A DNA stretch of 35,834 nt from the NCBI RefSeq assembly GCF_001402795.1, contig NZ_LIRE01000215.1:1-35834 (forward strand), given 5' to 3'. Below are positions 3,198 to 35,791 of the stretch, piece after piece. Source of the DNA: Pseudanabaena sp. 'Roaring Creek'. Its GTDB lineage: Bacteria; Cyanobacteriota; Cyanobacteriia; Pseudanabaenales; Pseudanabaenaceae. Position 1 is the first letter of the stretch. The number at the start of each line of letters is the position of its first letter. The notes below the pieces were generated by a model that did not search any database, was not told the DNA's origin, and saw only the letters and a program-made list of their open reading frames with translations. A program made the translations under genes and the position numbers.

Positions 3198-3201
3198 TAC
3201 C

Positions 3202-3234: not shown

Positions 3235-3248
3235 TAAAAACCTTACTG

Positions 3249-3312
3249 AGTTTGGGTTATACCAATTTCCAAAAGTGTAGCCACACTTTTGGAAATTGGT
3301 ATAACCCAAACT
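3249..3312. repeat. Long perfect palindrome, 30-bp arms
   Basis: The left arm (3249-3278) starts AGTTTGGGTTATACCAATTT and the right arm (3283-3312) is its exact reverse complement, with a 4-nt loop. It is the longest perfect palindrome seen in the window. The outer word TTATACCAAT also appears at 34321 and 34353, beside the biosynthetic cluster. Confidence 0.85.
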
Positions 3313-3383: not shown

Positions 3384-3401
3384 GACTATAGCTATAATAC
3401 C

Positions 3402-3435
3402 AATTCACGAAAGTGTGACAACACTTTTGTGAATT
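3402..3435. repeat. Hairpin repeat (AATTCACGAAAGTGT type)
   Basis: AATTCACGAAAGTGT (3402-3416) pairs with ACACTTTTGTGAATT (3421-3435) with one mismatch. A near match to its left half (CCACGAAAGTGTTGTCACA) occurs at about 34331-34349, so this unit recurs beside the exporter and salicylate-synthase genes. Confidence 0.65.
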
Positions 3436-3452
3436 AAACACCAAACACAGTA

Positions 3453-3502
3453 AGGTTTTGAGATTCCCAAAATGGCGTTGCCATTTTGGGAATTGGTATA
3501 AC
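3453..3502. repeat. Dispersed hairpin repeat, copy near USP gene
   Basis: This unit reads AGGTTTTGAGATTCCCAAAA into a 14-bp stem (3463-3476 with 3480-3493, loop GTT) and then AATTGGTATAAC. The same 24-base opening word is found twice at about 27137-27160 and 27233-27256, within the biosynthetic cluster. It sits directly after the stop of the minus-strand universal stress gene and may end that transcript. Confidence 0.75.
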
Positions 3503-3894: not shown

Positions 3895-4205
3895 AATTCC
3901 TACCTAGCACTGTAATTCGGATATGGGGTATCAAATCCAAGCAAAATTCTGAGCTTAAAATTCTGAGCTTAAAATTCTGAGCTTAGATTCTTGAACTCAT
4001 TGTAATAATCAAAATAGCTTGACAGGATTTAAATTTCTTAATTTTTAACATGCGATCGCCAATAATGAAGATTTAGAGGTGTTTCCGCAGCGTATATTTC
4101 CTTTTTTGCCCCGCTCGCATCCAATAAACAGCAGACCTTACTACATCAATGCTAACATTGCCAGATATATAACGAGAAAAAAGTCAAAACGGAAGTAGAT
4201 TATAG
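3895..4205. other. Divergent USP/pnp intergenic region
   Basis: No gene is seen. The region must hold promoters for the minus-strand stress gene and for pnp. It contains a three-copy 14-bp tandem repeat (3943-3984). A TTGACA-like hexamer at 4019 has no matching -10 that I can call with confidence. A GGAAG word lies about 14 bp before the pnp ATG. Confidence 0.4.
3943..3984. repeat. Tandem repeat, 3 x 14 bp
   Basis: Three exact head-to-tail copies of AAAATTCTGAGCTT, followed by a partial fourth with changes. The array is 48 bp upstream of the stress protein start and about 220 bp upstream of pnp. It could be multiple sites for one regulator or a replication-slippage product. Confidence 0.85.
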
Positions 4206-7885: not shown

Positions 7886-8027
7886 TAATAAGTAAGTAAG
7901 TGGGTTTAATTAAATAGAAAATCCTAAAACCTGCGGCGCGTGCGCCGCAGGTTTTAGATCTGGATTTTAATTATGCTGAAGTACTTAGGATGGCTCATGA
8001 ATGTCTTAAAAATTTAAAAAAGAGATT
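7683..8027. other. Intergenic region before NurA-type gene
   Basis: Apart from the zinc-ribbon-like remnant (7667-7885) this gap holds a GC-apex hairpin at 7924-7957 and the leader of the NurA-type gene, which has an AGAG ribosome-binding word directly before its ATG. No other gene is seen. Confidence 0.5.
7924..7957. repeat. GC-apex palindrome, 16-bp arms
   Basis: CTAAAACCTGCGGCGC (7924-7939) pairs perfectly with 7942-7957 around a 2-nt loop. It has the same GGCGC/GCGCC apex as other palindromes here but unrelated arms. It lies 70 bp before the NurA-type start, so it is either a terminator for the upstream region or a leader structure. Confidence 0.75.
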
Positions 8028-9855: not shown

Positions 9856-10040
9856 AGCGCAGAAGAGTTAATAAAAGTTGTGAATAAAAGTGAATAAAGG
9901 CTGTGAATAAAATTTGTAAGGTGCTAGCTTTACTATGCTTGTAAGGCGTAACAATCTCTCAATACATCTTAGCTTAGAGATAGGATAGACTCTGATAGGC
10001 TTAAACAGAGACTTCAGAAGCAAGAGCGTTGACAACCCCG
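9856..10040. promoter_or_regulatory. Divergent hisB / ATPase intergenic region
   Basis: A 185-bp region must hold both promoters. Just upstream of hisB, imperfect repeats of a GTGAATAAA-like word occur three times (about 9878-9909). I cannot call -10/-35 elements with confidence. Confidence 0.35.
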
Positions 10041-12932: not shown

Positions 12933-12970
12933 GACTATGAAAAAGAGCTATGAAAAAGGGCTATGAAAAA
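12933..12970 (+). repeat. 13-bp tandem repeat carrying three ATG triplets
   Basis: Near-identical units ending CTATGAAAAA occur three times (12933-12944, 12945-12957, 12958-12970). Each has an ATG (12937, 12950, 12963), but because the period is 13 the three ATGs fall in different frames, and only the last opens the GTPase gene. The GGG before the last ATG may serve as its ribosome binding site. Confidence 0.85.
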
Positions 12971-16498: not shown

Positions 16499-19400
16499 CT
16501 AGCAACTTAAAATACTTGCTTCAGGGAAATCTACGAGTTTTAAGAGCACCTTTTGATAGTTCGCTAACAACTGCGCCACCATCTCACCTGTAAATTTCTC
16601 GGTACTGTAATTTAAGATGATGCGCATGGGTTTCGACATTTCCAAATAAAACTCCAACGGTATATTTTCCATATACAGTTCTGACTTAACATCCTCCCAC
16701 GACTGCTTTCTAGCTTGCATTTCCACCACTTCCCAATGGGGTATCATTTCTAATCCCTGAGTGGCGGCAGTCATCGTCACACTTGCGATCGGACGCAAAG
16801 CCCCTAACTGTTGCGTTTGGGCGATGACTCGATTGAGGGGGATTTCTTTATGCTCGATCGCTTCCTTGATATTGGTTTGTAATTGCTTGATAAAAATCGC
16901 GCCTGTTTGTTCGGGAAGGATTGGCGATCGCAAAATAACATCATTGATAAAACAACCGAGCATCTGTTCAGTTTCAGGTAGGGGACGATTGCCTACGGTT
17001 GTCAAGATGCTCACTTCCTGATGTCCTTGCCATGCGGCTAGGGTTAGTTTCAATCCCGCAAGGAAGACAGCAAAACTGGTAACCCCCAAAGAGCGACTCA
17101 AAGCGACGATCGCTTCTACTAGGGATGTGGGTATTTCCGCAAAATAATGCCTTGCCTCGCGACTGGTCAATGGCTGAGCAAGGGGTAGGGAATTCCGATC
17201 GCTTACTAATTCGCCCACTAATTTATGCTGCCAATATTGCAGCTCCTGCGCGATCGCCGCTTCGTTGTATACCCGATGCTGCCAGAAAGCAAAATCTGCA
17301 TATTGCAGAGCCACAGCGGGAAGTGGGGAAGGCAGATCGCGGGAAAAGGCTTGGATGAGGCTATGCAATTCTTGAAGCAGGAGGCTAAAAGAAGCGCCAT
17401 CGGTAATGAGATGGTGCATCGAGATCGATAGCCAATGCTCTTCTGGTGCGAGACGAAATAATGTCGTGCGGATTAAAGGGGCGATCGCTAAGTCGAAGGC
17501 AGGTTCGGCGATCGCGATCGCCAAATTAAAAGCTTCAGATTCGCGTTCCGCAGGGGCTAGGTGTTGCAAATCCCTATAGACAAGCGGCAAATGCATAGAT
17601 GGTAAAACGAACTGCATCGGTTGACTGTCAACGATCTTAAAGACCGTTCGCAGAATTTCATGGCGTTGGATGAGTTCGTTAAAACTCCGTTCCACCACCG
17701 CAGGATCGACCGCTTCCTTCATCCGTAAAATAATCGAACTATTGAGGGTTGCACCTGTGCTACTGGACTGATGGGCTTCCCAAATATATTGCTGCGAAAA
17801 CGATAGGGGAATTGGCAAATCTAACGGACGCTGCGATTGAAGTTCGGTAATCCCGATCGGGTATTTTTTACTCCTCTGGAGGAGATCTGGGGAAGCAATC
17901 TGACTTTGCCCAATGCGATCGGCTAAGCCAGCCACGGTAGGCGATTGAAATAGGTCGATAATCGTGAGATTTGACGGAAAAATACTCAATAACTGGGCGA
18001 TTAGTTTAGTTGCGAGTAACGAATGTCCGCCTAGCTCAAAAAAGTCATCATGAATCCCAATCCGTTCGATTTGCAGAATTTCGACAAATATCTGGGCGAT
18101 TTGGGATTCTCTTGCGTTACTGGGGGCAATAAAAGTTTCAGTTAAGTCGGGACGTGATAGCTCTGGATCGGGTAATTGCGAACGATCCACTTTCCCATTT
18201 TTGTTGAGGGGCATTGCCGAGAGAAACATGAATCCCGCAGGAATCATATATTTAGGTAGGCGCTTTTCCAGAAAGCGTCGCAGACTTGCCGCCGTAGGAC
18301 GATCGCCCACCTTCGGGACGACATAGGCAATCAGACGTTTATCCCCAGTATGATCTTCCCAATCGATCGCCAGACTTTCCTGTACTTCAGGATGCTGAGC
18401 TAGCAATGCTTCAATTTCTCCTAACTCGATCCGATATCCGCGTATTTTTACCTGTCGATCGAACCGACCGAGAAATTCAATGGTTCCATCAGCCCAATAG
18501 CGGGCGCGATCGCCTGTTTGGTAGAGCCTTGCCCCTGCTGGGCTAAAGCGATCGGGGATAAACTTCGCATCGGTCAGATCGGGACGATGGAGATAGCCCC
18601 TAGCTAAACCCATGCCACCGATATACAATTCGCCAGCAATGCCGATCGGCGTGGGCTGCAAGCATGGATCGAGGATATAGGTGCGAGCATTGCGAACAGG
18701 CTTCCCAATGGGAATCTCCCGACCTGCGAGATCGAGGGTAGCGAGATCGATGGTGGTGGTAACGATCGTTGCTTCCGTCGGTCCGTAGCTATTGACTAAA
18801 CGTACGTGAGGTTTGACTATTTTTTGCCAGAGGGCAAAGCGATCGCTGAGGGCTTTTTCGCCACCGAGGATCACTAGCCTGATGGTGTCAGGTAATGCAA
18901 GCTGGCGATCGGTCATTTCCGTCACCATCTGATGCCAGAAAGCCGTAGGGAGATCGAGTACGGAAATCTGCCAGTCGGCACAGGTTTGGAGAAATGAGGC
19001 GATCGCGCCAAGCATCTCCTCCGATCGCAAGCTCAAAGTTGCCCCCGTCGAGAGGCAGGGAAAGATCTCTTCGGCAGCCGCATCAAAGCCGATGGAAGCA
19101 AATTGCAGCACACGATCGCGATCGCTGATACCATATTCCGCGATCGCCGCTTCCGTGTAGTTGACTAAAGAATGATGTTCCACCATTACCCCTTTAGGTT
19201 GCCCCGTCGAGCCCGATGTGTAGATAATGTAGGCAAGACGATCGCTCTGCACCGACCCTAGTTCTAAATTATCCCGACTTGCGGAGGCAATTTTTTCCCA
19301 ATCACCATCGATCAAAATTACAGGCACATTAAATTGAGGTATTTTCTCAATCAAAGTTCTCTGGGTTAATAATACGGAAACTTTGGCATCGGACAGAATA

Positions 19401-22288: not shown

Positions 22289-25200
22289 CTAATCCTGCAC
22301 TTGAGCTAACTGGGCTTGTATTTCATCTAGGGATAATTTTTCGATCTCGGCAAGAATCTTTGCCATCTCATCGGAATCCTCTGGCTGTAAAAGTGGCTGT
22401 AAAAGTTGCTCTCCGATTAAACTTGCCAATCCCGCCACCGTGGGCGCATCCGAAAGCAATGTCCGCAGCGATAGTTCCACAGGATACATTTCGCGGATCT
22501 GTGACACCAATCGCACCGCTAAGAGGGAATGTCCTCCCAACTCGAAGAAATTATCATTAACTCCCACCTGTTCTAGCCCTAGTTGAGCTTGCCAGAGTTC
22601 GGCGATTTTCTGTTCGATCGCATTACTTGGAGCCACATAGCTAGTGGATTGGAGCGATCGCTGGTGTCCTGCGACTCCTATAGCCGATGGCAACGATGCT
22701 TGAGCAGATGCTTGAGAAGATACTTGAGAAGCCGATTGGTCATTTGCCCTTGCCGCAGGAGCATCGGGTTGCTGTAGAGCCATATTGTTCTGTTCCCTTT
22801 GCTTCAGCACCGATGACCAGTCTTTGGTGGAAACTAAGACCTGACGATAATCGCTGTGCAAAATGCGCTGTAGAGCTTCTAGCCCCTCTTGGGGAGCGAT
22901 GCCCAGCGCTAGAGCCTCTAGACGTTCCTGCTTGATGCGATCGGGCAATCCCTTGAGATCTGCACCCATGCCTATTTCCTGCCAGATATCCCAATTAATG
23001 GAAATGGTGCGTTGATGCGAGGACTGCGCCGCAAAGGCATCGAGGAAACAGTTAGCAGCACAATAGTCCACTTGTCCTAGTCCACCGAGAACGGCACTAA
23101 GAGAGGAAAATAGCACCAAGAAATCCAAACCATCATTTTGGAAAGTCTGTTGCAGAACGAGCGTACCTTGAACCTTGGGACGCATGACTTGAGCGGCGAC
23201 GGCGGGATCTTTGAGTTGCATAATTCCATCGCCAGCGACTCCAGCCGTATGCAAAATACCGTGGAGTTTTCCAAAGGTTTGTTGAATGCGATCGCGCAGG
23301 GATTGCATTTGTTCGCGATCGGCAACATCGGCATTTAACACCATCACTGTCGCACCATGCGCTTCCATGGCTTGGATTTTGCGAATTTTGACGGTTATAC
23401 TATCCTCGTCACCGTGATTTTGCATCCATCGTTCCCATTCGTCCCTAAGAGGCAAAGCGGTGCGACTGATTAAAACTAGCTGGGCTTGGAAATTACGGGC
23501 GAGATACTCGGCAATAGTCATGCCAATGCCACCCATGCCGCCAGTAATCAAATATACTCCCCGATGCCGAAATGCTGTCCGATCTGTTGTCCAATCTGTT
23601 GTCCAATCTGCTTTCCGATCTGAAGGTGAAGTTACCGAGGGTAAATAGATTTCTTCATGAATTGGTAACCAGCGATAGTTGCCCCGATAGGCAACTATGG
23701 GCGCAGAGGAGCGATCGGCGAGATTGAGAATTTCCGCAACGATTTGATCGCATTGATCGCCCCACTGTTTATTCTCAGGTTTATTCTCAGGTTTATGATC
23801 GGGTTTATGATCAGGGTCAGCAGCGATCGCCACATCGATCGCACCGCAGGCGATCTGAGGATATTCCTGAGGAATCACCTTACAGGCTCCCAAAATCGTG
23901 GTTTTTTCTGGAAAAACTACTTCCGTTCCCGATACATCTTGCGTATGGTTCGAGACCACCCCAAGGCAGATTGCTTGCGTCACATTTTGCTGACCGATCG
24001 CTTGAGCTAAATAGAGCAGGCTAAAGAAGCCCAATCTCTGCGATTCTTCCCCATCAACCCGATCTCCTAAAGTCCAGAGATGGGCAATTATAGGCGATTG
24101 TCCCAAGGTGAGAACTTCTCGAATTAGCAGCTCATAGTGATGGCGATCGCTGGGATTAATCCGATAGACATCATCGTCACTGTGACTAAACTCAGAACCA
24201 ATATGCACCTGAATTACTCGATATCCACGCTGCTGCAAGCTTTGGGTCATCGTCGCACCTAAGCCCTGACGATCGCCAAAGATGACCCAGCAGCGATCGC
24301 TTAGTTCCTTTCGTATCGGTAAAGCCGCACGCTTCCAAGAGGGAAAATAGAACCATTCGCCAATATCCGACTTCTTGTTCAGATCGATCGTAGGTCGATC
24401 GTTTGATTCTAGCTGGGGAGCCGCGATCCAATAGCTTTGCCGCTCAAAGGGATAGGTGGGAAGGGGAACCCGCGCCGATGGCTGTTGAGCATAAAATTCC
24501 GCCCAATCAATTTCTACCCCATGCAGCCAAAGTTGTCCCAAGGTTTTGAGGAAAAATTCTAGTTCTGAAGATCGATCTTGGGGATGGGGTAAAGAACTAA
24601 GAATTACGCGATCGCTTGACTGCTGCTTGGCTAAGGTGCTGAGTGTGCGTCCTGCACCTACTTCCAATAAAATGCCATCGGCATTATTTAATAGCTCGGC
24701 AATACCCTGCGAAAACTGAACGGGTTGCCGCAAATGCTGCGCCCAATATTGGGGATCGGTGGCAGATGCCGCCGTAATCCAAGTACCCGTCACATTGGAA
24801 ATAAATGGAATTTGCGGTGGATGCAACGTCATTTTTTGTAAGTGCTCGACCAATGGCGCGATCGCTCCTTCCATCATCGGCGAATGAAAGGCATGGGAGG
24901 TATGCAAAGGTTGACAAGGGATCTCTTGAGCGGATAGCAACCTTTGCAGTTTGGCGATCGCTTCTATTGCTCCTGAAACGACACAGAGCGATGGACTATT
25001 AATGGCGGCAAGGAAGAGATCCGCTCCGAGAAAAGACTGGACATCTCTGGACGATAGGCTCACGGCAAGCATCGCTCCTTGGGGCTGTTGTTGCATCAAG
25101 CTCCCGCGCAGAGCAACGAGAGCGAGGGCATCATCAAGCGAGAACACGCCCGCAAGATAGGCGGCTACATATTCGCCAATACTATGCCCGATCATCGATT

Positions 25201-27073
25201 GGGGCTTTACTCCCCAAGACATCCACAATTTGGCAAGGGCATATGCGATCACAAATATGGCAGGTTGGGCGATCGCTGTCTGCCTTAATTTCTGCTGCGC
25301 GGATGGTATTGCTTCACCCTCGGCAAATAATATGGAACGCAGATCGATTTGATGCTGGGTCGAGAGGATCGTAAAACAGCGATCGCATTCTGCTTGAAAA
25401 GTCGGCTCGCTCATATATAGCTCTCGCGCCATGTTTAGATACTGCGAGCCTTGCCCAGAAAACATGAACATAACTGCCGTATTATTTGCTTCAGCATGTC
25501 CTGTCAGCGATCGCTCTGGCTGTTGCAGCAAGATTTGGCTCGCATCTGCCAAGGTTTGGGCGATCGCCACCCTTCGATGGGGTAGCGCCCAACGTCCAAT
25601 CCCCAAGGTATAGGCGACATCCGTTAAGTTAAGCTCGGTTTTTTGGTTGAGATAATCGCCTAAATTTGCAGTTGCCTTGTCCAAGGCTGTCTCTGTTTTC
25701 GCAGAAAGCGCGAGGATCTGATAAGCCCTCGGCTTTAGATCGGTTGTTATTGGTGCAGGAGCTTCTTCCAACACAACATGTACATTTGTGCCACCAAAAC
25801 CAAAGGAACTCACCCCAGCCCTGCGAGGAATTCCTTGGGGTTCCCATGCCGTCAGTTGGGTATTGACAAAAAATGGGCTATTCGCAAAGTCAATCTGAGG
25901 ATTGGGCGCTGTGAAGTTAAGACTGGGGGGGATCTTTTTGTGATGCAGCATCAGTACGGTTTTAATGAAACCCGTAATTCCTGCGGCGGCATCTAAATGA
26001 CCCACGTTGGTTTTCACGGAACCGATCGCACAGAATTGGCGGCGATCGGTCGCGACTCGAAAAGCTTGGGTCATGGCGGCAACTTCGATCGGATCGCCCA
26101 GAGCCGTGCCCGTACCATGGGTTTCCATGTAGGTAATGGTGTCGGGTTCTACTTCCGCCATCATTTGCGCGGCACGAATCGCTCTTGCTTGACCTTCCTG
26201 ACTGGGAGCGGTATAACCGACTTTCATCGAGCCATCATTGTTAATCGCCGAGCCCTTGATTACTGCATAAATGCAATCGCGATCGGCGATCGCATCTTCT
26301 AAGCGCTTTAGTACCACGATTCCCAAACCATTGCCACCCACCGTGCCATTCGCCCCACAGTCAAAGGCTCGACAATGACCATCGGGAGAGACGATCTCTT
26401 CGGGGGATAGGGTGGATTCGTTCTGGGGCACTTTTACGGAAACTCCCGCTGCCAGAGCCATATCACATTCGCCACTCAACAAGCTTTGACAGGCTAAATG
26501 GACTGCGACGAGAGAACTCGAACAGGCTGTTCCCACGCTCATGCTCGGACCTTTGAGATTCAACTTGTAGGAAACACGGGTAGGCAGATAGTCTTTGTCC
26601 ACTCCCACTAAAGTTTGTAAGAATCCCCTCGACTCAATAAAGTTGGGATTGGGACTCAGGTTGTAGAGCAGATAGGTTCCCATGCCTACGCCAGCAAATA
26701 CGCCAATGGGACTAGACTCAGTTTCAGACCGATAGCCTGCATTTTCGAGGGCTTCCCAAGCACATTCTAGAAAGAGTCGATGCTGGGGATCCATAGCTTC
26801 TGCTTCCCTAGGATTGAACCCAAAGAAAGCCGCATCAAATCGATCCACATCCTGCAATATCGATCCAAATCGAGGTATCTTTGCGGACAAAGGGATATCC
26901 TTCGCATCTGATCCCTGTTGGGATGATTGGGATTTATTAAACTTACTAAAGGGAGTGACTAGCTCTACACCTGTTTCTAGATTTTTCCAGAAATCATCAA
27001 TGGTAGGGCTTCCTGGCAACTTTCCCGCCAGACCGATTACTGCTATTTCTAAACCATTTTGATGGGAATTCAT
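22289..27073 (-). CDS. Type I modular polyketide synthase, KS-AT-KR-ACP
   Basis: This 1594-residue single PKS module has: KS (about 8-435) with Cys184 in GTACSSSL, His319 in ETHGTGT and His359 in NVGHLD, all intact; AT (about 533-830) with FSGQGSQ, GHSIGEY (Ser631) and the motif HAFH (727-730), which predicts malonyl-CoA; KR (structural half from about 905, catalytic half from 1170) with GGMGGIG (1178-1184), Ser1324, Tyr1337 and Asn1341, so probably active. AGD stands in place of LDD, and no Trp of the A-type is seen, so the B-type is only weakly favoured. The ACP near the end has Ser1516 in LGGHSLL. There is no DH, ER or MT. The module would add one beta-hydroxy acetate unit. The C-terminal helix (about 1565-1590) may dock to the last NRPS. 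Four 12-bp in-frame tandem arrays lie in its linkers. Confidence 0.94.
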   Translation of the reverse strand: MNSHQNGLEIAVIGLAGKLPGSPTIDDFWKNLETGVELVTPFSKFNKSQSSQQGSDAKDIPLSAKIPRFGSILQDVDRFDAAFFGFNPREAEAMDPQHRLFLECAWEALENAGYRSETESSPIGVFAGVGMGTYLLYNLSPNPNFIESRGFLQTLVGVDKDYLPTRVSYKLNLKGPSMSVGTACSSSLVAVHLACQSLLSGECDMALAAGVSVKVPQNESTLSPEEIVSPDGHCRAFDCGANGTVGGNGLGIVVLKRLEDAIADRDCIYAVIKGSAINNDGSMKVGYTAPSQEGQARAIRAAQMMAEVEPDTITYMETHGTGTALGDPIEVAAMTQAFRVATDRRQFCAIGSVKTNVGHLDAAAGITGFIKTVLMLHHKKIPPSLNFTAPNPQIDFANSPFFVNTQLTAWEPQGIPRRAGVSSFGFGGTNVHVVLEEAPAPITTDLKPRAYQILALSAKTETALDKATANLGDYLNQKTELNLTDVAYTLGIGRWALPHRRVAIAQTLADASQILLQQPERSLTGHAEANNTAVMFMFSGQGSQYLNMARELYMSEPTFQAECDRCFTILSTQHQIDLRSILFAEGEAIPSAQQKLRQTAIAQPAIFVIAYALAKLWMSWGVKPQSMIGHSIGEYVAAYLAGVFSLDDALALVALRGSLMQQQPQGAMLAVSLSSRDVQSFLGADLFLAAINSPSLCVVSGAIEAIAKLQRLLSAQEIPCQPLHTSHAFHSPMMEGAIAPLVEHLQKMTLHPPQIPFISNVTGTWITAASATDPQYWAQHLRQPVQFSQGIAELLNNADGILLEVGAGRTLSTLAKQQSSDRVILSSLPHPQDRSSELEFFLKTLGQLWLHGVEIDWAEFYAQQPSARVPLPTYPFERQSYWIAAPQLESNDRPTIDLNKKSDIGEWFYFPSWKRAALPIRKELSDRCWVIFGDRQGLGATMTQSLQQRGYRVIQVHIGSEFSHSDDDVYRINPSDRHHYELLIREVLTLGQSPIIAHLWTLGDRVDGEESQRLGFFSLLYLAQAIGQQNVTQAICLGVVSNHTQDVSGTEVVFPEKTTILGACKVIPQEYPQIACGAIDVAIAADPDHKPDHKPENKPENKQWGDQCDQIVAEILNLADRSSAPIVAYRGNYRWLPIHEEIYLPSVTSPSDRKADWTTDWTTDRTAFRHRGVYLITGGMGGIGMTIAEYLARNFQAQLVLISRTALPLRDEWERWMQNHGDEDSITVKIRKIQAMEAHGATVMVLNADVADREQMQSLRDRIQQTFGKLHGILHTAGVAGDGIMQLKDPAVAAQVMRPKVQGTLVLQQTFQNDGLDFLVLFSSLSAVLGGLGQVDYCAANCFLDAFAAQSSHQRTISINWDIWQEIGMGADLKGLPDRIKQERLEALALGIAPQEGLEALQRILHSDYRQVLVSTKDWSSVLKQREQNNMALQQPDAPAARANDQSASQVSSQASAQASLPSAIGVAGHQRSLQSTSYVAPSNAIEQKIAELWQAQLGLEQVGVNDNFFELGGHSLLAVRLVSQIREMYPVELSLRTLLSDAPTVAGLASLIGEQLLQPLLQPEDSDEMAKILAEIEKLSLDEIQAQLAQVQD
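22383..22406. repeat. 12-bp tandem repeat x2 in PKS C-terminus
   Basis: Two exact copies of GGCTGTAAAAGT encode LLQP-LLQP on the minus strand, between the ACP and the terminal docking-like helix. In frame, so copy number changes would not break the gene. Confidence 0.8.
22695..22730. repeat. 12-bp tandem repeat x3 in PKS KR-ACP linker
   Basis: Three near-identical copies of GATGCTTGAGCA encode the Ser/Ala/Gln-rich linker SQVSSQASAQAS before the ACP. In frame, with two base differences across the units. Confidence 0.85.
23584..23619. repeat. 12-bp tandem repeat x3 in PKS KR linker
   Basis: Two exact and one diverged copy of CTGTTGTCCAAT, preceded by a partial unit, encode a DWTT-DWTT-DRT stretch just before the catalytic KR half. 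Confidence 0.85.
23768..23815. repeat. 12-bp tandem repeat x4 in PKS KR structural half
   Basis: Four units (two TTTATTCTCAGG, then TTTATGATCGGG and TTTATGATCAGG) encode PDHK-PDHK-PENK-PENK at residues 1087-1102. The two-by-two pattern suggests a unit that diverged, with each version then duplicated. Confidence 0.9.
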
Positions 27074-27136
27074 AATGCTTATTTGGTAAAAATATTAATC
27101 TCGATTAATCGCGATCGCAGGATTTATGCGCATTCA

Positions 27137-27180
27137 AGGTTTTGAGATTCCCAAAATGGCAATACCATTCTGGGAATTGG
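27137..27180. repeat. Dispersed hairpin repeat, copy 2
   Basis: The opening word AGGTTTTGAGATTCCCAAAA and the hairpin (27147-27159 with 27165-27177) match the copy at 3453-3502, with one stem mismatch that keeps most of the pairing. Confidence 0.75.
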
Positions 27181-27193
27181 CATAGGGGTTCTC

Positions 27194-27226
27194 AAATCAA
27201 GAAATGGCTAAGCCATTTCTTGATTT
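27194..27226. repeat. Hairpin repeat, 16-bp perfect arms
   Basis: AAATCAAGAAATGGCT (27194-27209) pairs exactly with 27211-27226 around a single base. The apex AATGGC/GCCATT is shared with the hairpin at 34284-34308. Confidence 0.8.
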
Positions 27227-27232
27227 GGTGTG

Positions 27233-27276
27233 AGGTTTTGAGATTCCCAAAATGGCAACGCCATTTTGGGAATTGG
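27233..27276. repeat. Dispersed hairpin repeat, copy 3
   Basis: A third copy of the AGGTTTTGAGATTCCC unit, with a perfect 14-bp stem (27243-27256 with 27260-27273, loop AAC). It differs from the 3.4-kb copy only in loop bases and flanks. Confidence 0.8.
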
Positions 27277-27293
27277 GATTAAGTAGCCATTTA

Positions 27294-30200
27294 TCACAGC
27301 ACATTTGTCTGTTTAGATCGATCCAATCGTTGTTTAATCCGATTCTTGCCAGCATCCAATCTTTGCGCTGATTTCTGCTGCTCTAAAACATTTGTGGTCT
27401 GCCCTTGGGTCAATCGCTGCGCTAAAGCCTTCACCGTAGGATAACTAAAGAGATCGACCAGAGAAATCAATTGAATTTCCTGTGGCAAGGCGAGCCCTAG
27501 TTTGCGATAAACGTTAGTAATTAGCAGTGAATTTGCGCCAAGATCGAAGAAATTGTCATTGACCCCAACCTTTTCCAGTTCTAACTCCGCTTGTAAAACG
27601 GAAGCGATCGCCCGTTCGATTGCATTTTGCGGAGCGGTGTAGGCTGCCACTCGGGTTTGAAATAAGGATACCTGCGTCGGTAGTGCTTGGCGATCGACCT
27701 TTCCATTAGCCGATAGGGGGAATTTGTCAAGGAACAAATAGATAGAAGGAATCATCGGACTCGGCAACTTATGTCCCAGAAATTGACTGAGTTCCTCCAC
27801 CGTTGGTGCTAGCGTCGCATCGTCCATTTGGGGAATAATGTAAGCCGCTAACTGAGCCTGTTGTCCCTCTCCCACGATCTTAATAATGGCGGTTTTGACC
27901 TTGGGATGTTGCATTAAGGCGGCTTCAATTTCCCCTGCTTCCATACGCTGACCGCGTAGTTTAATTTGAAAATCGACCCGACCTAAAAATTCAATCGTGC
28001 CATCCTTTAAATAGCGACCGCGATCGCCAGTACGATAAATTCGCTCCCCCGTTCTTGGGTGAGTGATAAAAGCAGCCTTAGTTCTAGTTTCGTCTTGCCA
28101 ATAACCCTTGGCTACCTGCACTCCCGCGCAATACATTTGACCCGCTACCCATGTCGGACAATCATCTAAGGCTTCATTCAAAATGTAGTATTTTGAGTTG
28201 GTCATCGGCTGACCGTAGGGGATACTTTTCCAATCAGGCGAGACTTCATTCACTTGATAGCCAATATTCCAAATGGTGGTTTCGGTGGGTCCTCCAATAC
28301 TCAATAGATCGATATGGGGAACTACAGCCCTAATGCGATGGGGTAGGGAGACGGGAAACCAATCCCCTCCCAATATGGCTAAACGCAAATTAGAGGTCAA
28401 ATTAGAGGTCAAATTAGAAGTAGCGGATGCCGCGCGATCGCTGATAGCATTCACCAACATTTCCATCATGGCTGGAACCGAGTTCCACAATGTCACTTGC
28501 TGCGTCTCGATCAGATCTGCCCAATGGTGGGGATCTTTGAGCGATCGCGCGTCAGGCAAGACGATCGCGCCCCCCGCACTGAGCATCCCAAAAATGTCAT
28601 AAACCGATAGATCGTGATTAAGCGCCGTTAAAGCAAGAATGCGATCGCGATGGGTAACTTGATAGTTTTGGTTCGTGTAAACGATCACATTCGCGACATT
28701 GCGGTGGGTGATCATTACTCCTTTGGGTAAACCCGTGGAGCCAGAAGTATAGATTACATAGGCAAGATCATCAGGATTTTGCAGAGGTGGAAGAGATAGT
28801 TCCTTCTCGTCATGAAAATCTTTATGAAAGTCTTTATAAAAGTCTTCGCGATCGAGACAAAATCTCTTCATACTGCGATCCCAAATCAAGGTGTCATCTA
28901 ACCAAGATTGAGTTAATACAATTTGTGCTTCGCTGTTTTTCAGGAGATATTGCAAGCGCTCTGGCGGCAGATCGGGGGCAATGGGCACATAGGCAGCTCC
29001 TGACAACAAAACTCCCATGACCGCAACGATCTGCTCCCATCCCTTTTCCATAACGATCGCTACTAGCTGGTTGGGAACTACACCTAAATGTCTGAGTTTA
29101 TAACCGACCTGATGGGCGCGATCGCTTAATTCCTGATAGGAAATAGATTTTTGGGAAGTAATTACCGCAGAGAGATCGGGATATTCCCTTACTCGCTCCT
29201 TAAATAGTTCTTGCAATAAAACCTTCGGAATATCGGCATCTGTGAAATTGGCAATATTTCTATTTAACAGTTGCTCAGAGGTAAGTAGTTGTCGATTGGG
29301 TTCGATCCAGATTTCCTCAGACTTAGCTAGGCGTTCGAGGAAATGACAATAGGTCGCAAACATATCGGCGATCGCGCCATCGGGGAACAGTTCGTCCACT
29401 ACATCCCAGTTAAAGGTGAGAGTTTCCTTCTCTTCCCAAACCTGCACATCCATCCAAGCTTGAGAAGCTTGGCTGATGCCATATACTAACTCACCAAAAT
29501 GACTAAAGGTCAAAGTTTCCTGCCCCATAGCGGCAAATCCGAGGGTACTGGTAAAAATTACGGGCATCGCGTTGGGCACATTACCCTGTTGGCGAGTGAG
29601 TTCTCGTGTCACCCTTACCCCGCTAAAGTAGCGATGTTCGAGATCCTGCCAGAGTTGTTTTTGGAGTCGCAGGGCGCGATCGCCAAAGGGTTCTTGCCGA
29701 GAATTATCGACCTCTAGTAAGGTTACTGAGGTAAAGTCCCCCAATAGGTGATTGACATGGGGATGCATTGGTAGGCGATTAAATAGCGCCAAATTTAAGG
29801 TAAATTGCGGATTTTGACTCCAGAGAGCGATAATTTCGGCAAAGGCGGCAAGCAATAGCCCCGAAGGCGTTAAACCAATATTTTTGGCTTTTTGCTGGAG
29901 CCTTTGCCAGTCATCTCGCTCCATTTGAGCATGATAGCGTTTACAGCGATGCTGTTTCAGTTCTTGCGGATTTTTGGCGAGGGGCAATTCTGGCGCGGGG
30001 GGCAAATTGCTGAGGCGTTTGAGCCAATATTCCTGCGATCGCTGATAAAGCTTGGTTTGCGGTAAAGACTGTTCGGCAAGAACATAGTCCCGAAAGGAAA
30101 GCTCTAATGGTGGCAAAACCGCTTCGGGACATTGATAGAGTTGAAACCATTCTTCAAATAGACGGAATAGGCTCCAAGCATCAAATACAAGCAGATCGTA

Positions 30201-30821
30201 ACTGATATGCAAACGGGTGCGATCGCCATCTAAATAGGTCACGCGAAAATCAAACAAAGGATAGCGATCGGCGGGTAATACTTGATGGGACATCTCTTCC
30301 CTGATGGCTGCAAGTCGATCAGCGATCGCTGTCGGTGTTTGTCCGCGCAGATCTACCACCGCAAGGTGATAGGGCGGAACTTCCTTCAGGATTTGCTGTT
30401 GTCCATCGGGACGCACGATAGCCCGCAACATATCATGGCGCGAGATCGATTGCTGTAGGGCGCGATTTAAGCGTTCAAAATCGAGATGACTTCCTTCTAT
30501 TTCATAGTATCCATGATTGGAAACATTGCCCAAGGTCAGTACGCCACTGCGTCCGATCCAAAAAGCGTGCTGCATATCGGTCAGCGGGAATGGCTCATAA
30601 CGCGATTCGGGATCGGGAACGATCGCGGGCAAATCATTTTCCGTAGGACTAGTCTGATGCTGGTGCAGCAATGCTAAAATCTCGCTCTTGCGATTAATAA
30701 TGGAGTCGCGCAATTCGGCAGTTAAGACTCCCTGCGGGGCATCCACTAGCAGAGATTCGCCTTCAGCCGATAATTTAATACCGATATTAGAGAGTGAGTT
30801 TAAAAGTGAATACAGATTCAT
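27294..30821 (-). CDS. Non-ribosomal peptide synthetase, TubC docking-Cy-A-PCP
   Basis: This 1175-residue protein begins with a TubC-type N-terminal docking domain (about 1-56), which receives a chain from a separate upstream protein. The heterocyclisation domain (about 75-500) is recognised by FPLTDMQHAFWIGR and by D-x4-D-x2-S (Asp209, Asp214, Ser217) in place of the HHxxxDG of ordinary C domains. Cy domains condense and cyclodehydrate Cys, Ser or Thr. The A domain (about 535-1045) has YTSGSTGLPKG (691-701), and its code residues by eye are D737 L738 Y741 N780 I816 G818 I842 I850 W851 K1041. This shares DLYN..(x)IW with the cysteine code DLYNLSLIW, so cysteine and a thiazoline are predicted. 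The PCP serine is S1098 in LGANSLL. There is no oxidase or reductase domain, so the ring should stay a thiazoline. It lies between the KAS III-like and PKS genes, same strand. Confidence 0.93.
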   Translation of the reverse strand: MNLYSLLNSLSNIGIKLSAEGESLLVDAPQGVLTAELRDSIINRKSEILALLHQHQTSPTENDLPAIVPDPESRYEPFPLTDMQHAFWIGRSGVLTLGNVSNHGYYEIEGSHLDFERLNRALQQSISRHDMLRAIVRPDGQQQILKEVPPYHLAVVDLRGQTPTAIADRLAAIREEMSHQVLPADRYPLFDFRVTYLDGDRTRLHISYDLLVFDAWSLFRLFEEWFQLYQCPEAVLPPLELSFRDYVLAEQSLPQTKLYQRSQEYWLKRLSNLPPAPELPLAKNPQELKQHRCKRYHAQMERDDWQRLQQKAKNIGLTPSGLLLAAFAEIIALWSQNPQFTLNLALFNRLPMHPHVNHLLGDFTSVTLLEVDNSRQEPFGDRALRLQKQLWQDLEHRYFSGVRVTRELTRQQGNVPNAMPVIFTSTLGFAAMGQETLTFSHFGELVYGISQASQAWMDVQVWEEKETLTFNWDVVDELFPDGAIADMFATYCHFLERLAKSEEIWIEPNRQLLTSEQLLNRNIANFTDADIPKVLLQELFKERVREYPDLSAVITSQKSISYQELSDRAHQVGYKLRHLGVVPNQLVAIVMEKGWEQIVAVMGVLLSGAAYVPIAPDLPPERLQYLLKNSEAQIVLTQSWLDDTLIWDRSMKRFCLDREDFYKDFHKDFHDEKELSLPPLQNPDDLAYVIYTSGSTGLPKGVMITHRNVANVIVYTNQNYQVTHRDRILALTALNHDLSVYDIFGMLSAGGAIVLPDARSLKDPHHWADLIETQQVTLWNSVPAMMEMLVNAISDRAASATSNLTSNLTSNLRLAILGGDWFPVSLPHRIRAVVPHIDLLSIGGPTETTIWNIGYQVNEVSPDWKSIPYGQPMTNSKYYILNEALDDCPTWVAGQMYCAGVQVAKGYWQDETRTKAAFITHPRTGERIYRTGDRGRYLKDGTIEFLGRVDFQIKLRGQRMEAGEIEAALMQHPKVKTAIIKIVGEGQQAQLAAYIIPQMDDATLAPTVEELSQFLGHKLPSPMIPSIYLFLDKFPLSANGKVDRQALPTQVSLFQTRVAAYTAPQNAIERAIASVLQAELELEKVGVNDNFFDLGANSLLITNVYRKLGLALPQEIQLISLVDLFSYPTVKALAQRLTQGQTTNVLEQQKSAQRLDAGKNRIKQRLDRSKQTNVL
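28387..28422. repeat. 12-bp tandem repeat x3 inside A domain
   Basis: Two exact copies and one diverged copy of AAATTAGAGGTC encode TSNL-TSNL-TSNL (residues 801-812). They lie in a loop between the code positions N780 and I816, close to the substrate-binding core. Confidence 0.88.
28813..28848. repeat. 12-bp tandem repeat x3 in A domain loop
   Basis: Three near-identical copies of ATGAAAGTCTTT encode DFYK-DFHK-DFHD (residues 659-670), a charged loop some 20 residues before the A3 motif. Confidence 0.85.
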
Positions 30822-30826
30822 AGATT

Positions 30827-30859
30827 GGCTCTAAATTAGCTCTAAATTAGCTCTAGATT
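30827..30859. repeat. 11-bp tandem repeat x3 upstream of Cy-NRPS
   Basis: Three units of AGCTCTAAATT (first and last with one change each) lie directly before the NRPS start on the minus strand. The AGAG part of the unit complements a ribosome-binding word, so the array may offer alternative SD positions. Confidence 0.8.
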
Positions 30860-30967
30860 AGCTAGATAAATGTTCGTTCATTATTTCTGCCTAGGTAAAA
30901 ATAATGAGATTGATAACAATAAGGAGAAATGAGAAATGAGAGGGGTAATGGTATGGATGGGAACACT

Positions 30968-32638
30968 CTACAAGCTGATAATTTCTCGATTTAGCTGACT
31001 GTGAGAGTTTCCCGTGATCGCATTTTCAAGCACATTGCCGATCGCATTTTCGAGCGCATTGTGGTTAATAACCTTGGCAACGGCAAGCCGAGCCAGCAAA
31101 AATTCCGCCAGATGCTGGATCGTATTTTCGCCAAAAAAATTCTCCATCGGTACGCGGATTTGTAAATCGGTTTCAATACGATGGCGGAAGACGATCGCCA
31201 TTAAAGAATCCAGTAAAGTCGCCAAACAATCGCGATCGCTGATATTACTGGGGGTAATTTGTTGTGAATTTGCTAGCCAATCCTGTAGATAAGCAACCAA
31301 GATCCCATAGCGATCTTCCAAATCAGCCGTCTCCAGTCGCTGCTTGATAGAAGCTTCGGCAAACAAAGCTACAGGCTGCTCGATAGGAAGAGGAAGAATT
31401 TGTTTTTCTATCTGTTTTTCTAAAGGAATTAGATTTTCTAACTGCGCAATTCCTTGCAATTTATTTTGGGAATTATCTTGAGAATTACTTTGGGAATTAC
31501 TTTGAGAACTATCTTGGGAGAGATTCAAGGCTGGGGGAATCCTAGCCCCTAAACCCACATCCCCCCAACGCATTACGATCGCGGCGGCAGTCGCAGCAGC
31601 ACCATTGGCATATACCAACACCAAATCATTGTCACGAATTTTCCCCTGCATTGCTGCATGATAGAGGTTAGCAATGGGAAAAACGGGACCAAGATTGGCA
31701 TAGAGTGGATATAGGTCAATTACCTTCGCAGGATCGATTCCCAAGGCTTTAGCGCATACGCTCGCATACCAAGCTGTGGGCGTATTAAAGGCAAAACAAT
31801 GGATTTGGTCGAGACTAACACCTGCTTCTTTAACAGCGGTTAAACAACATTGGCGCACCCGATCCACAGCCGTTTCTCCGAGGCTACTGGCATTGTCACC
31901 TGTACTAGTTTGGAAGCGTGGGTTTCCTTGGGCATCGATCGCTAACCCATGGATGTAGGCTCCGATCGTTGCGGTTGTCGGTACGATTTTTGTACTCATG
32001 AGTCCACGATTTGGGCGATCGCTACTCACAACCATCGCTCCAGCCCCATCCCCCATCGACAGGGAAAGAGTATCAGTTTCATTCACCGCTTGAGAGCCCA
32101 GATGGGAAGCCACAATCAAAATATGACGATAGGTTCCAGTTTGCAAGAAAGCTTGAGCGGTATGGAGCGCAATTAGGGCACTAGCGCAGGTCGATTCTAG
32201 ATTCCAAGCTGGGCAATTCAGTCCCAGTCGCTCCGCCAGTTGAGTCGCTAGCCCAGTTCCCACCGTATCGGGAAAGAGCGAAGAAACGAGGGCTAAATCG
32301 ATCTGATCGGGCGATAGATTTGCCGCCCTAATCGCATCTTGAGCTGCTTGACATTCAAGCAATAGGGAGGATTCACCTTCTGATACCACATGCCGATTGA
32401 CACTGCCTCGAAATGGATCGGCTAGATAGGTCGTAAGTTCTTGCAACCAGAGATCGATTCCGTTGGCAGTGGCGCTAGATTCCATAGATTCAAAGGCTTC
32501 AGAGAGTTTCACTCGCCTTTGCCTTGGGTTAACCTGAAACAATTCAGGGAATTTTTGTTGCCAATATTGATTGGTGCGAATTGTGTGGGGAAAGCTGACT
32601 GCCAGCGAACGAATACCAACCGATTGCACGATCTTCAT
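30968..32638 (-). CDS. KAS III-like (thiolase-fold) enzyme fused to a carrier domain
   Basis: This 556-residue protein is much longer than FabH (about 320). The first 365 residues are a KAS III-like thiolase fold with the nucleophile Cys151 in STCASALIALHTAQ, the SMGDGAGAMV strand and a final YANGAAATAAAIVM. The usual catalytic His seems replaced: the aligned segment reads FNTPTAW (Asn285), while Asn315 in YANLGP may match the FabH Asn. A Ser/Gln/Asn-rich linker (374-395) follows, then a carrier domain (about 440-518) with Ser478 in LLDSLMA. A short helical tail may dock to the next protein. Such variants include acyltransferases as well as condensing enzymes. It may load or transfer the starter acyl or aryl group; this is inference. 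It lies directly upstream of the Cy-NRPS. Confidence 0.82.
   Translation of the reverse strand: MKIVQSVGIRSLAVSFPHTIRTNQYWQQKFPELFQVNPRQRRVKLSEAFESMESSATANGIDLWLQELTTYLADPFRGSVNRHVVSEGESSLLLECQAAQDAIRAANLSPDQIDLALVSSLFPDTVGTGLATQLAERLGLNCPAWNLESTCASALIALHTAQAFLQTGTYRHILIVASHLGSQAVNETDTLSLSMGDGAGAMVVSSDRPNRGLMSTKIVPTTATIGAYIHGLAIDAQGNPRFQTSTGDNASSLGETAVDRVRQCCLTAVKEAGVSLDQIHCFAFNTPTAWYASVCAKALGIDPAKVIDLYPLYANLGPVFPIANLYHAAMQGKIRDNDLVLVYANGAAATAAAIVMRWGDVGLGARIPPALNLSQDSSQSNSQSNSQDNSQNKLQGIAQLENLIPLEKQIEKQILPLPIEQPVALFAEASIKQRLETADLEDRYGILVAYLQDWLANSQQITPSNISDRDCLATLLDSLMAIVFRHRIETDLQIRVPMENFFGENTIQHLAEFLLARLAVAKVINHNALENAIGNVLENAITGNSHSQLNREIISL
31016..31063. repeat. 24-bp tandem repeat x2 at the C-terminus of KAS III-like gene
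   Basis: Two imperfect copies of a 24-bp unit starting GATCGCATTTTC encode HNALENAIG-NVLENAITG. They duplicate a short helix at the very end of the protein, where a docking element to the TubC domain could be. Confidence 0.75.
31399..31422. repeat. 12-bp tandem repeat x2 in KAS III-ACP linker
   Basis: TTTGTTTTTCTA and TCTGTTTTTCTA encode two copies of an EKQI motif in the linker between ketosynthase and carrier domain. Confidence 0.75.
31461..31520. repeat. 12-bp tandem repeat x5 in KAS III-ACP linker
   Basis: Five units of the form TTACTTTGGGAA encode a SQSN-like run (residues 374-393) in the interdomain linker. Alternating G/A differences between units suggest repeated duplication. Confidence 0.9.
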
Positions 32639-32833
32639 AAATTTTTCAAAGGTTTACAAGCTTATTGCATATAATTCTCAAGAGAATATATTGACATTAA
32701 CATATCAATCTCCGAGAAACAAGCAATATCTACAAAGATATCATGGGAAATTCAATTTTATTTATTAGTAATCTTTATCAATAAATATGCCATGATGGAA
32801 CATTATTTTTGAAGATGTTTAAAGATTTTTGTC
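32639..32833. promoter_or_regulatory. Divergent promoter region of biosynthetic operon and exporter
   Basis: This 195-bp AT-rich gap lies between the KAS III-like gene (minus) and the MFS exporter gene (plus), so both promoters should be here. It holds an AT-rich inverted repeat ATTCTC-AA-GAGAAT (32674-32687) and a second one ATATCT-ACAA-AGATAT (32726-32741). The first resembles a Fur-type box in base content only. I cannot assign -10/-35 elements with confidence. Confidence 0.45.
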
Positions 32834-34126
32834 GTGCGTATTTTTACAATTCTTTGGAGCGGGCAGATGGCTTCGGCGATTGGGACAGAGATGACCCAAT
32901 TTGCACTCACCATCTGGATTTGGCAGATGACTCAGCAAACCACAGCGATCGCGCTCCTCAGTTTCTTTTTTCTGCTCCCCCAAATAGCGATCGCTCTATT
33001 CGCAGGGTTAATTATCGATCGCTTCAATCGTCAATATCTGATGATTTTTAGCGATGTGGGGGTCGCTCTATGTACGGTTTTAATTGGATTGCTTTACGCA
33101 ACGCAAAACCTCCATCTCTGGCATCTATATTCCTTAGCAGTCATCTATGGCTGCTGTGGGCAGATACAAGGGCTAGCTTTTTCCGCATCGATTTCATCCA
33201 TCGTGCCTCAGCAGCACTACGCCCGCGTGAGTAGCATGAGAACGCTGATCAACTACAGTTCGGCAATTATCGCACCCGCGCTTGTCGGTGCACTCTATCC
33301 CGCGATCGGCTTGATTGGCATCATTGCGATCGACCTCACAACTTTTTTAATCGGCATTGGGACGGTGCTCATGGTACGCATTCCCCAACTAGAAAGCCAA
33401 GAAACTATGGAAATCAATCGCAAAACGATCGGACAGCAATTGTTTTGGGGGATTAATTACATCCTCGCCAGACCGAGTCTATTGGCAATGACCGTTACTT
33501 TTTGTTTGTTTCTGTTTACCTACCACATGGTGGAAACCTTATATCAACCCATGATCCTTGCGCGTACTAATGGAAGTACTCAGATATTGAGTATGGTTGT
33601 GACTGCGGCAGGTATAGGCGGTGTTGTGGGAGGGGCGACCTTGAGCGTTTTCGGGGGCTTTAAACGCCAAATTCGCGGGATGATCGTCGGATTTATCGGC
33701 GTGGGGCTCGGCAGTTGCGTCCTAGGTCTGGGACAAACGCCTTGGATTTGGATTGGAGCCCATTTCTTCGCCGCCTTTAGTGTTCCTCTAACCTATAGTT
33801 CCAGTTATGCCGTCTGGTATGCCAAAGTACAGCCTGAGGTGCAAGGACGAGTGCTAGCATCAGCCCATGCATTGGGATTGGTAGTTGGCGCATTTGCGAG
33901 CCTAATCGCGGGAGTATTAGCCGATCGCATTTTTGAACCCGCCATGAATTCTGGGAGCCTCTTTGCCACCATATTTACGCCCATTATTGGCATAGGTAAA
34001 GGTTCAGGAATTGCCCTATTGGTGACGATCGCCTCCCTTTTAATGGTCGCAATTGGGGTAATTAGTTATAAATTCCCTCCGCTCCGCAACGCGGAAGATT
34101 TACTTCCAGACCACGGTCAATCGTAA
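32834..34126 (+). CDS. MFS transporter, EntS/DHA3-like exporter
   Basis: This 430-residue membrane protein has about 12 hydrophobic segments. The start motif IFTILWSGQMASAIGTEMTQ and the LIIDRFNRQYLMIFSDVG loop (MFS signature between helices 2 and 3) match the DHA3 or MFS_3 branch, to which EntS (enterobactin exporter) and macrolide efflux pumps belong. It would sit in the inner membrane and use the proton gradient. The GTG at 32834 is chosen because the first conserved helix starts right there; the next ATG (32867) would cut it. It is divergent from the biosynthetic genes and lies inside the cluster, so export of the product is the likely role. The substrate is not shown by the sequence. A MITE-like element follows the stop by 14 bp. 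Confidence 0.88.
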   Translation: MRIFTILWSGQMASAIGTEMTQFALTIWIWQMTQQTTAIALLSFFFLLPQIAIALFAGLIIDRFNRQYLMIFSDVGVALCTVLIGLLYATQNLHLWHLYSLAVIYGCCGQIQGLAFSASISSIVPQQHYARVSSMRTLINYSSAIIAPALVGALYPAIGLIGIIAIDLTTFLIGIGTVLMVRIPQLESQETMEINRKTIGQQLFWGINYILARPSLLAMTVTFCLFLFTYHMVETLYQPMILARTNGSTQILSMVVTAAGIGGVVGGATLSVFGGFKRQIRGMIVGFIGVGLGSCVLGLGQTPWIWIGAHFFAAFSVPLTYSSSYAVWYAKVQPEVQGRVLASAHALGLVVGAFASLIAGVLADRIFEPAMNSGSLFATIFTPIIGIGKGSGIALLVTIASLLMVAIGVISYKFPPLRNAEDLLPDHGQS

Positions 34127-34140
34127 TAATACGAAGTTAA

Positions 34141-34283
34141 GAAACCATTTAAGAATTCACTAGATCCCCCCCAGCCCCCCTTAAAAAGCAGGGGGGAGAA
34201 TTCAATTCTTCCCCCTTTTTAAGGGGGATAGAGGGGGATCTCTTAGATTTTGTGACCGCAAAAAGTGATTCTTAAATGGTTTC
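34141..34283. mobile_element. MITE-like element of about 143 bp
   Basis: Terminal inverted repeats of about 20 bp (GAAACCATTTAAGAATTCAC at 34141 and its complement ending 34283, one extra base in the left copy) enclose a large inner palindrome with runs of C and G (34162-34241, AGATCCCCCC...GGGGGATCT). There is no ORF. The flanking TAA on both sides (34138-34140 and 34284-34286) could be a target duplication. The C-rich/G-rich inner repeat is a type common in cyanobacterial genomes. Confidence 0.75.
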
Positions 34284-34308
34284 TAAGAAATGGCGTAGCC
34301 ATTTCTTA
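34284..34308. repeat. Small hairpin repeat next to the MITE
   Basis: TAAGAAATGGC (34284-34294), loop GTA and the exact complement (34298-34308). It has the same AAATGGC apex as the hairpins at 3202, 27194 and 27243. Confidence 0.7.
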
Positions 34309-34351
34309 ATTTGAAAACCCTTATACCAATCCACGAAAGTGTTGTCACATT

Positions 34352-34385
34352 GTTATACCAATTCACGTTCGTGAATTGGTATAAC
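34352..34385. terminator. Perfect palindrome after the salicylate-synthase gene
   Basis: GTTATACCAATTCACG (34352-34367) pairs exactly with 34370-34385. It lies about 40 bp past the stop of the minus-strand gene and downstream of the convergent exporter gene. It may terminate both transcripts, but no T-run is visible. The GTTATACCAATT word also forms part of the palindrome at 3249-3312. Confidence 0.55.
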
Positions 34386-34423
34386 AGAGAGAGTTGCATA
34401 ACCTGCGACTCTCTCAGACGAAG

Positions 34424-35791
34424 CTACTTGAGAACTAAATTGGTCAACATCGTATTCATTTTATTGACAGATTCCACATACTCACTTTCGGGTATCGACT
34501 CCGCCACAATACCTGCGCCAGCATTAAAACAGATTGATTCATCGTACTGATAGGCGGAGCGAATCGCGATCGCGAGATCCGCAGTTCCGTGACTGTCCAC
34601 CCAGCCGATTCCACCAGCATACAAACCTCTGGGCTCGGCTTCTAAGCGATCGATCCATGCCAAAGCATTCTGTTTATCGATGCCCGAAACCGTAATGCCT
34701 GGAAATAGGACTTTTAAGGCATCCCATAGCGTTTTTTCGGGTTTCAACTCGCCACCAACGCGAGAGGAAAGATGTTGCACGCAGCGATATTGTTTGACCT
34801 GCATGAAATCAAAAACCTTCACCGTTTCAGGGATGCAAAACTCACCGATCTCATCTTGGGCAAGCCAAATAGATAGGGCATGTTCCTTGACCTCCTTCGC
34901 ATCGGTAAATAGTTCGCGGTTTAACTGTTGATCTCGAGCGAGATCTTCTGAGCGGGGACGGGTGCCTGCTAAGGGGTTAGTGATGACAAAGCGATCGCGA
35001 TCTACGGTCATCAAAATCTCTGGACTGAAACCGACCGCACTCACATTGTCCATCTGGAAACAGTAGGAACGGACAGAATTATTGCTTTGAGAACCAAGAC
35101 AATAGGTTCCTAGTAAATCCATTTCGCCTTTCACCTTGACAGAGCGCGAAAGAATCGCCTTATGCAAATGTCCTTCCCGAATTGCTTGGATCAATTTGCT
35201 TACCTGCGTCTGATAGTATTCGCGATCGGCAAAATCAACAACAGGGGGAGTAGCCTTATAGCTACGCAGTGGCGCATCGATAGACAGAGCTTCAAGGATT
35301 TTCGTAATGGGCTTCACGCTTCTGATCCGAATGCCGCGATCGGTAATATGCAGTTCTGTCTCAGGAATGAAAAAATTGAGTAGCGGCTGTTGAATTGCCT
35401 TGGTATAGGGTGAATAAAACCTCGCCATGTCAAAACTAACGTAGCCATAGGCAGTCCAATTTTCGATTGGTAAAGAGGCTAGAGCCGATTCCACCTGTTT
35501 GAGCGGATCGGTAATCGGTTGAGACTGGGTTTGCCCCATATAAGTACAGGTCACCGCTTCCGTACTTACCGAAATACTCCCTAGGGTGTTTCCCGCAATC
35601 CGAGTTTCGCGATCGCCTTGATACAACATATAGCTCGAAAAAAGACCGAAATCCAAGAGATTCTGCAATAGGCATTGCGGATCCTTGGGTGAGGGGACAA
35701 ACAACTCATGATAAATAACAGATTGAGTAGCAGATTGAGTAGTAGATTGAGCAGCAGCCTGAGTATCGGCTTGAGTAGCAATTGGAGACAT
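34424..35791 (-). CDS. Chorismate-utilising enzyme, probable salicylate synthase
   Basis: This 455-residue protein belongs to the anthranilate synthase I/isochorismate synthase superfamily and is most like the Irp9/YbtS/MbtI salicylate synthases, which turn chorismate into isochorismate and then salicylate with Mg. Visible are HKAILSRSV with the presumed general base Lys211, VGFSPEILM, the NPLAGTRPR motif (272-280), DAKEVKEHALS with Glu300/Glu303, VQHLSSRV (His340), LFPGITVSGIDK, EPRGLYAGGIGW and NAGAGIVAES. The AGT (not AGS) and VQHL motifs favour salicylate synthase over a menaquinone-type isochorismate synthase, which remains the main alternative. Residues 5-24 are a 12-bp tandem repeat encoding TQxx units, likely disordered. 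It is close to the right edge, so its upstream neighbours are not seen. It convergently faces the exporter gene. Confidence 0.8.
   Translation of the reverse strand: MSPIATQADTQAAAQSTTQSATQSVIYHELFVPSPKDPQCLLQNLLDFGLFSSYMLYQGDRETRIAGNTLGSISVSTEAVTCTYMGQTQSQPITDPLKQVESALASLPIENWTAYGYVSFDMARFYSPYTKAIQQPLLNFFIPETELHITDRGIRIRSVKPITKILEALSIDAPLRSYKATPPVVDFADREYYQTQVSKLIQAIREGHLHKAILSRSVKVKGEMDLLGTYCLGSQSNNSVRSYCFQMDNVSAVGFSPEILMTVDRDRFVITNPLAGTRPRSEDLARDQQLNRELFTDAKEVKEHALSIWLAQDEIGEFCIPETVKVFDFMQVKQYRCVQHLSSRVGGELKPEKTLWDALKVLFPGITVSGIDKQNALAWIDRLEAEPRGLYAGGIGWVDSHGTADLAIAIRSAYQYDESICFNAGAGIVAESIPESEYVESVNKMNTMLTNLVLK
35720..35779. repeat. 12-bp tandem repeat x5 in salicylate-synthase N-terminus
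   Basis: Five units of the form AGATTGAGTAGC encode residues 5-24 (TQxx or AQxx repeats). The array starts 12 bp after the ATG and is in frame. Confidence 0.9.

Follow-up and report, generated by a model that had tools for sequence, protein, structure and literature searches.

Tandem 12-bp arrays in a Pseudanabaena siderophore cluster probably reflect a lineage-wide bias towards short duplications

Why should the genes of one biosynthetic cluster carry tandem arrays of unrelated sequence with a shared period of 12 bp? The window analysed here, a stretch of 35,834 nucleotides from the 5.48-Mb genome of Pseudanabaena sp. 'Roaring Creek', contains at 16.4-35.8 kb a siderophore-type cluster whose genes have their best matches in Pseudanabaena. 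It comprises an NRPS (C-A-PCP-C), a luciferase-like monooxygenase of the MupA/Atu3671 family, a KS-AT-KR-ACP polyketide synthase (PKS), an NRPS with a TubC-type docking domain, a KAS III-ACP fusion, a major facilitator family exporter and a salicylate synthase. A first-pass annotation reported nine 12-bp arrays and a 24-bp duplication in this cluster and took the shared period as a hint of a cluster-specific process or of selection for adjustable linkers. Of the genomes searched, the closest to this one has a 95% identical PKS and appears to be P. biceps PCC 7429; the salicylate synthase of that named genome is 96% identical (this gene was compared with the named PCC 7429 contig; the close-relative contig stops short of it).

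TRF and a direct lag-12/lag-24 check recovered all the reported repeats, at most a few bases away from the positions given. The one at 31399 has 1.8 copies only; SQSN, TQxx and the others were found to be head-to-tail, near-identical copies. All lie in minus-strand genes. The PKS carries 2.4 copies of a 12-bp unit in its tail downstream of the carrier domain (LLQP LLQP, 22382..22410; one copy in P. biceps), 3.1 copies in the KR-ACP linker (SQVS/SQAS, 22695..22731; 24 bp shorter in P. biceps), 3.9 copies in the linker immediately N-terminal to the KR domain (DWTT, 23576..23622; of equal length with different residues in P. biceps, absent from distant Pseudanabaena) and 4.1 copies in the linker from the structural to the catalytic part of the KR (PDHK/PENK, 23767..23815; one unit fewer in P. 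biceps). The NRPS1 adenylation domain has 2.8 copies of a 12-bp unit in a loop (TSNL, 28386..28418; shorter by one unit in P. biceps and by two in others) and 2.9 copies in a variable region (KDFH, 28812..28846; length unchanged in P. biceps, missing from 18 other homologues). In the KAS III-ACP fusion, a 24-bp duplication of 1.9 copies lies in the C-terminal tail (31016..31061; one 12-bp unit more in P. biceps), and the linker holds a perfectly matching 12-bp duplication of 1.8 copies (EKQI, 31401..31422; two units more in P. biceps) and a 12/24-bp array of about 4.7 copies in a stretch predicted to be disordered (SQSN, 31453..31519; three units fewer in P. biceps). The N-terminal extension of the salicylate synthase has 5.6 copies of a 12-bp unit (TQxx, 35719..35784; two units fewer in P. 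biceps, absent from the other Pseudanabaena compared).

These arrays are not a product of chance, since Markov simulations of the 19.4-kb cluster (100 replicates) gave two rows at TRF score 50, none of them with period 12. The observation that every array is in frame and adds four-residue units is correct in that all lie inside ORFs, but the in-frame status is automatic for any 12-bp unit in an ORF. The last NRPS, described as free of arrays, has a minus-strand 15-bp duplication of 1.9 copies in its adenylation domain (NRPS2, 18726..18754; same length in P. biceps), and its P. biceps copy contains a four-unit array and another 12-bp duplication. The genes at the left do lack arrays in their coding sequence, but the intergenic gaps there hold arrays of 13- to 23-bp units (948, 3943, 9866 and 12935). 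Among them are a perfect 14-bp array of 3.1 copies (3943..3985), a 13/23-bp array (9866..9917) and a 13-bp array of 2.8 copies that extends slightly beyond the start codon of the next gene (12935..12970, in the gap between two genes); within the cluster, an 11-bp array of 3.6 copies lies between NRPS1 and the KAS III gene (30824..30863). Unit sizes in the window are thus 12, 15 and 24 bp in genes and 11, 13, 14, 23 and 48 bp between them. The intergenic array at 3943, whose unit is not divisible by three, is a product of the same process as the genic arrays. Two other kinds of repeat are present. Between the PKS and NRPS1 (27137-27276) lies a repeat of about 48 bp in 2.9 imperfect copies with a palindromic look, and a 96-bp length difference from P. 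biceps in the noncoding DNA of the cluster may correspond to it. Dispersed, MITE-like repeats of about 105 bp (1786-1901, 3197-3305, 3395-3501 and 7893-7987) match on both strands, and the P. biceps-like genome contains dozens of them.

The genome-wide distribution speaks against a process specific to the cluster. In a sample of 742 kb outside the window, TRF found 148 arrays with a score of at least 50; coding sequence holds 55 of them (0.092/kb) and noncoding DNA the other 93 (0.64/kb). Units divisible by three account for 53 of the 55 coding arrays and for 41 of the 93 noncoding ones (Fisher test, P-value = 8e-12). Noncoding periods are mainly 9-15 bp, most of them 11-14 bp, and favour no frame; exact-copy lag spectra set against simulated controls place the signal at 8-16 bp, with a sharp drop above 15. 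Hence, the shared period does not point to a special process: a mutation spectrum of about 8-16 bp, peaking at 11-14 bp, looks like 'period 12' and 'in frame' once the reading frame has filtered it. Array density, which the first-pass annotation proposed to compare with the rest of the genome, is not equal there: genes differ among themselves and the cluster is enriched, but intergenic DNA is denser.

The suggested comparison of copy numbers among strains proved informative. We considered every 12-bp array site present in the cluster copy of either strain; 10 of the 12 differ between the window and P. biceps, all by one to four whole 12-bp units, and those at 23576 and 28812 do not differ in length. 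Copy number is therefore far from completely conserved in relatives. Changes run in both directions: in the last NRPS, a four-unit TAPV array and a doubled ELVS are present in P. biceps, at sites with no copy or a single copy in the window. The arrays are absent in three Pseudanabaena whose PKS and NRPS1 proteins are 69-76% identical. In orthologous DNA, indels resembling tandem duplications are 9-15 bp long and in any frame in noncoding sequence, and mostly 12 bp in coding sequence. The cluster arrays are recent and still changing.

The duplication excess is shared by the two close strains. Exact 10-16-bp noncoding duplications have a density of 0.49/kb in the present genome and of 0.81/kb in that of P. 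biceps, as compared with 13 in 137 kb (0.095/kb) for 51 other cyanobacterial loci and 6 in about 44 kb (∼0.14/kb) for other Pseudanabaena, the latter a thin sample, much of it plasmid, with the ABRG5-3 plasmids as an additional control. For exact intergenic duplications of this size, the two genomes are at 4-9 times the level of the other sampled cyanobacteria. Nearly all repeat units are distinct (177 of 179, counted per genome as 73 of 74 and 104 of 105), so the duplications are independent events; a dispersed repeat family with internal repeats is ruled out.

Overall, we consider it very likely that the arrays stem from a lineage-wide bias to duplications of about 8-16 bp, combined with reading-frame selection and tolerant linkers, with no mechanism local to the cluster. 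This strain and P. biceps PCC 7429 would share a genome-wide bias to de novo tandem duplication of such segments; new duplications would arise without prior homology at the junction, and established copies would then gain or lose whole units, probably via ordinary slippage. Selection would purge frame-breaking events in genes and leave mainly 12-bp units, followed by 15, 18 and 24 bp; most in-frame duplications would be purged as well, those in linkers, tails and surface loops being the exception. The siderophore cluster may have many arrays since its megasynthases, under somewhat weaker constraint, contain many linkers in which insertions are tolerated. The original interpretation of the arrays is thus partly supported: the evidence supports a duplication process and tolerant linkers.

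One could expect classical replication slippage between pre-existing short repeats to be the starting step, as established arrays do differ by whole units. However, in 89 two-copy intergenic duplications with little or no third copy (exact copies only, N excluded), junction matches of 0, 1, 2 and 3 extra bases were observed 49, 27, 9 and 4 times, as against 49.4, 25.9, 10.2 and 3.6 expected without microhomology. Because this is the chance distribution, the founding duplication does not seem to use junction microhomology, and slippage as the initiating event appears improbable.

Footprints of mobile elements, i.e. target-site duplications of about 9-14 bp remaining after excision, are a less probable source still. 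Target-site duplications of some IS families are similar in size to the duplications seen here, and IS1-family and other transposases are present in a relative. Yet the size spectrum is continuous over 8-16 bp with a peak at 11-12, no strong junction motif was found in the 49 unambiguous cases, and excision that keeps both copies is rare. Ku-type end joining was not found either: no Ku (PF02735) was detected in this genome, in the P. biceps genome or in any of the 24 genomes searched (B. subtilis control positive).

The remaining question is why this cluster has so many arrays. It contains 10 in about 18.2 kb of coding sequence versus 1.65 expected, a roughly sixfold enrichment for a block that was chosen post hoc; sampled coding blocks of 18.2 kb contain at most 8, and random gene sets reach 10 with a P-value of 0.003 or less. 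In P. biceps, too, the cluster is rich in arrays (0.35/kb). Some other genes exceed the density of the cluster, e.g. one 1983-aa ORF with six arrays. We found no array with a score of at least 50 in AMP-binding ORFs sampled elsewhere in the genome, so the enrichment seen in this cluster is not a general NRPS feature. Arrays are found after the ACP, between KR and ACP, before the KR and between KAS III and ACP; others occupy protein tails, and two lie in variable regions of an adenylation domain. Most are in linkers, tails and variable loops. The linker and tail of the KAS III-ACP protein are predicted to be disordered (pLDDT below 50 at 368-428 and 525-556), and structure prediction places the adenylation-domain sites within or beside lower-confidence regions. 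Synonymous divergence is not raised in the cluster (0.146 versus 0.206 elsewhere), which rules out a local substitution hotspot. Omega is mildly raised (0.11 versus 0.08), reaching 0.17-0.18 for the PKS and KAS III genes. Tolerance of insertions is the simplest cause of the enrichment. However, it may not explain all of the excess, as 10 arrays are more than in any sampled block, and a residual local effect on array number is possible.

Selection for an adjustable length of megasynthase linkers would fit the location of most arrays in linkers or tails, as well as their abundance in the P. biceps cluster, but we regard it as quite unlikely and the data lend it no support. An adenylation domain contains two of the arrays and the N-terminus of the salicylate synthase another, neither unit sequences nor lengths are conserved, the syntenic clusters of relatives have no arrays at these sites, and the other sampled AMP-binding ORFs have none of score 50. 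Local hypermutation, a slippage or repair defect confined to the cluster, is very improbable: the sixfold density and the surplus of 12n-bp indels (11 in 18.4 kb of the cluster versus 6 in 84.6 kb of other coding sequence) speak for it, but like arrays are denser in intergenic DNA across the genome, synonymous divergence is unraised and some other genes are denser.

If a lineage-wide duplication bias is accepted, its source might be a displaced lagging-strand segment of about primer length that is retained, or other fill-in at staggered nicks, which is our best guess. The former is reasonable because the length of bacterial primers is close to the observed unit sizes. More tentatively, one Pseudanabaena lineage may have a heritable mutator signature: tandem duplications of about 8-16 bp would arise often and independently of microhomology, perhaps by retention of primer-length lagging-strand segments in Okazaki maturation, and continually add four-residue units to its proteins. 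Loss of Pol I 5' nuclease, SbcD, MutS, RecJ or RNase H is ruled out as a cause, as all are present in both genomes, and so is DinB, whose copy number does not track the trait; among the genes examined, no repair-gene difference accounting for it was found. In many Pseudanabaena (e.g. G003:C19:84860-88151), a second RecJ gene is interrupted near profile position 339, its parts forming separate ORFs that sometimes lie on different contigs; this genome, P. biceps and some others have it in a single frame. An intein, split intein or intron is possible.

The arrays resemble bacterial minisatellites (VNTR loci) in their short head-to-tail units and whole-unit copy differences among strains. VNTR, however, are few long arrays, whereas the excess seen here extends over the whole genome and consists of independent duplications, mostly in two to three copies, whose units vary little in size but are unrelated in sequence. 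The STRR heptamer repeats of heterocystous cyanobacteria, in which a few 7-bp unit sequences recur at many places, are likewise abundant intergenic short tandem repeats within a cyanobacterial lineage, but here nearly each locus has its own 8-16-bp unit rather than the same unit at many loci. We found no account of such duplications in Pseudanabaena in the literature. Short tandem duplications are one of the chief ways in which residues are added to proteins, and their bacterial origin is poorly defined; a close strain pair with a several-fold excess, narrow unit size and no junction homology would make that origin testable. In this lineage, the excess accounts for four-residue repeats acquired by multi-domain synthases. 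Small tandem duplications in animals, a similarly defined class of short tandem duplication mutations, are attributed to fill-in at 3' overhangs followed by end joining (PMC8355091). The present ones differ in being bacterial and of narrow unit size, and the Ku end-joining route is unlikely for them, because Ku was absent from the searched genomes.

A syntenic siderophore cluster is carried by plasmid ABRG53e of Pseudanabaena sp. ABRG5-3, where its neighbours are TonB, ExbD and a TonB-dependent siderophore receptor. In the window, the terminal NRPS (16499-21193) has the order C-A-PCP-C, whereas the ABRG5-3 version (L222:8577-10913), without the A core and the second C domain, consists of C, the C-terminal part of A and PCP.
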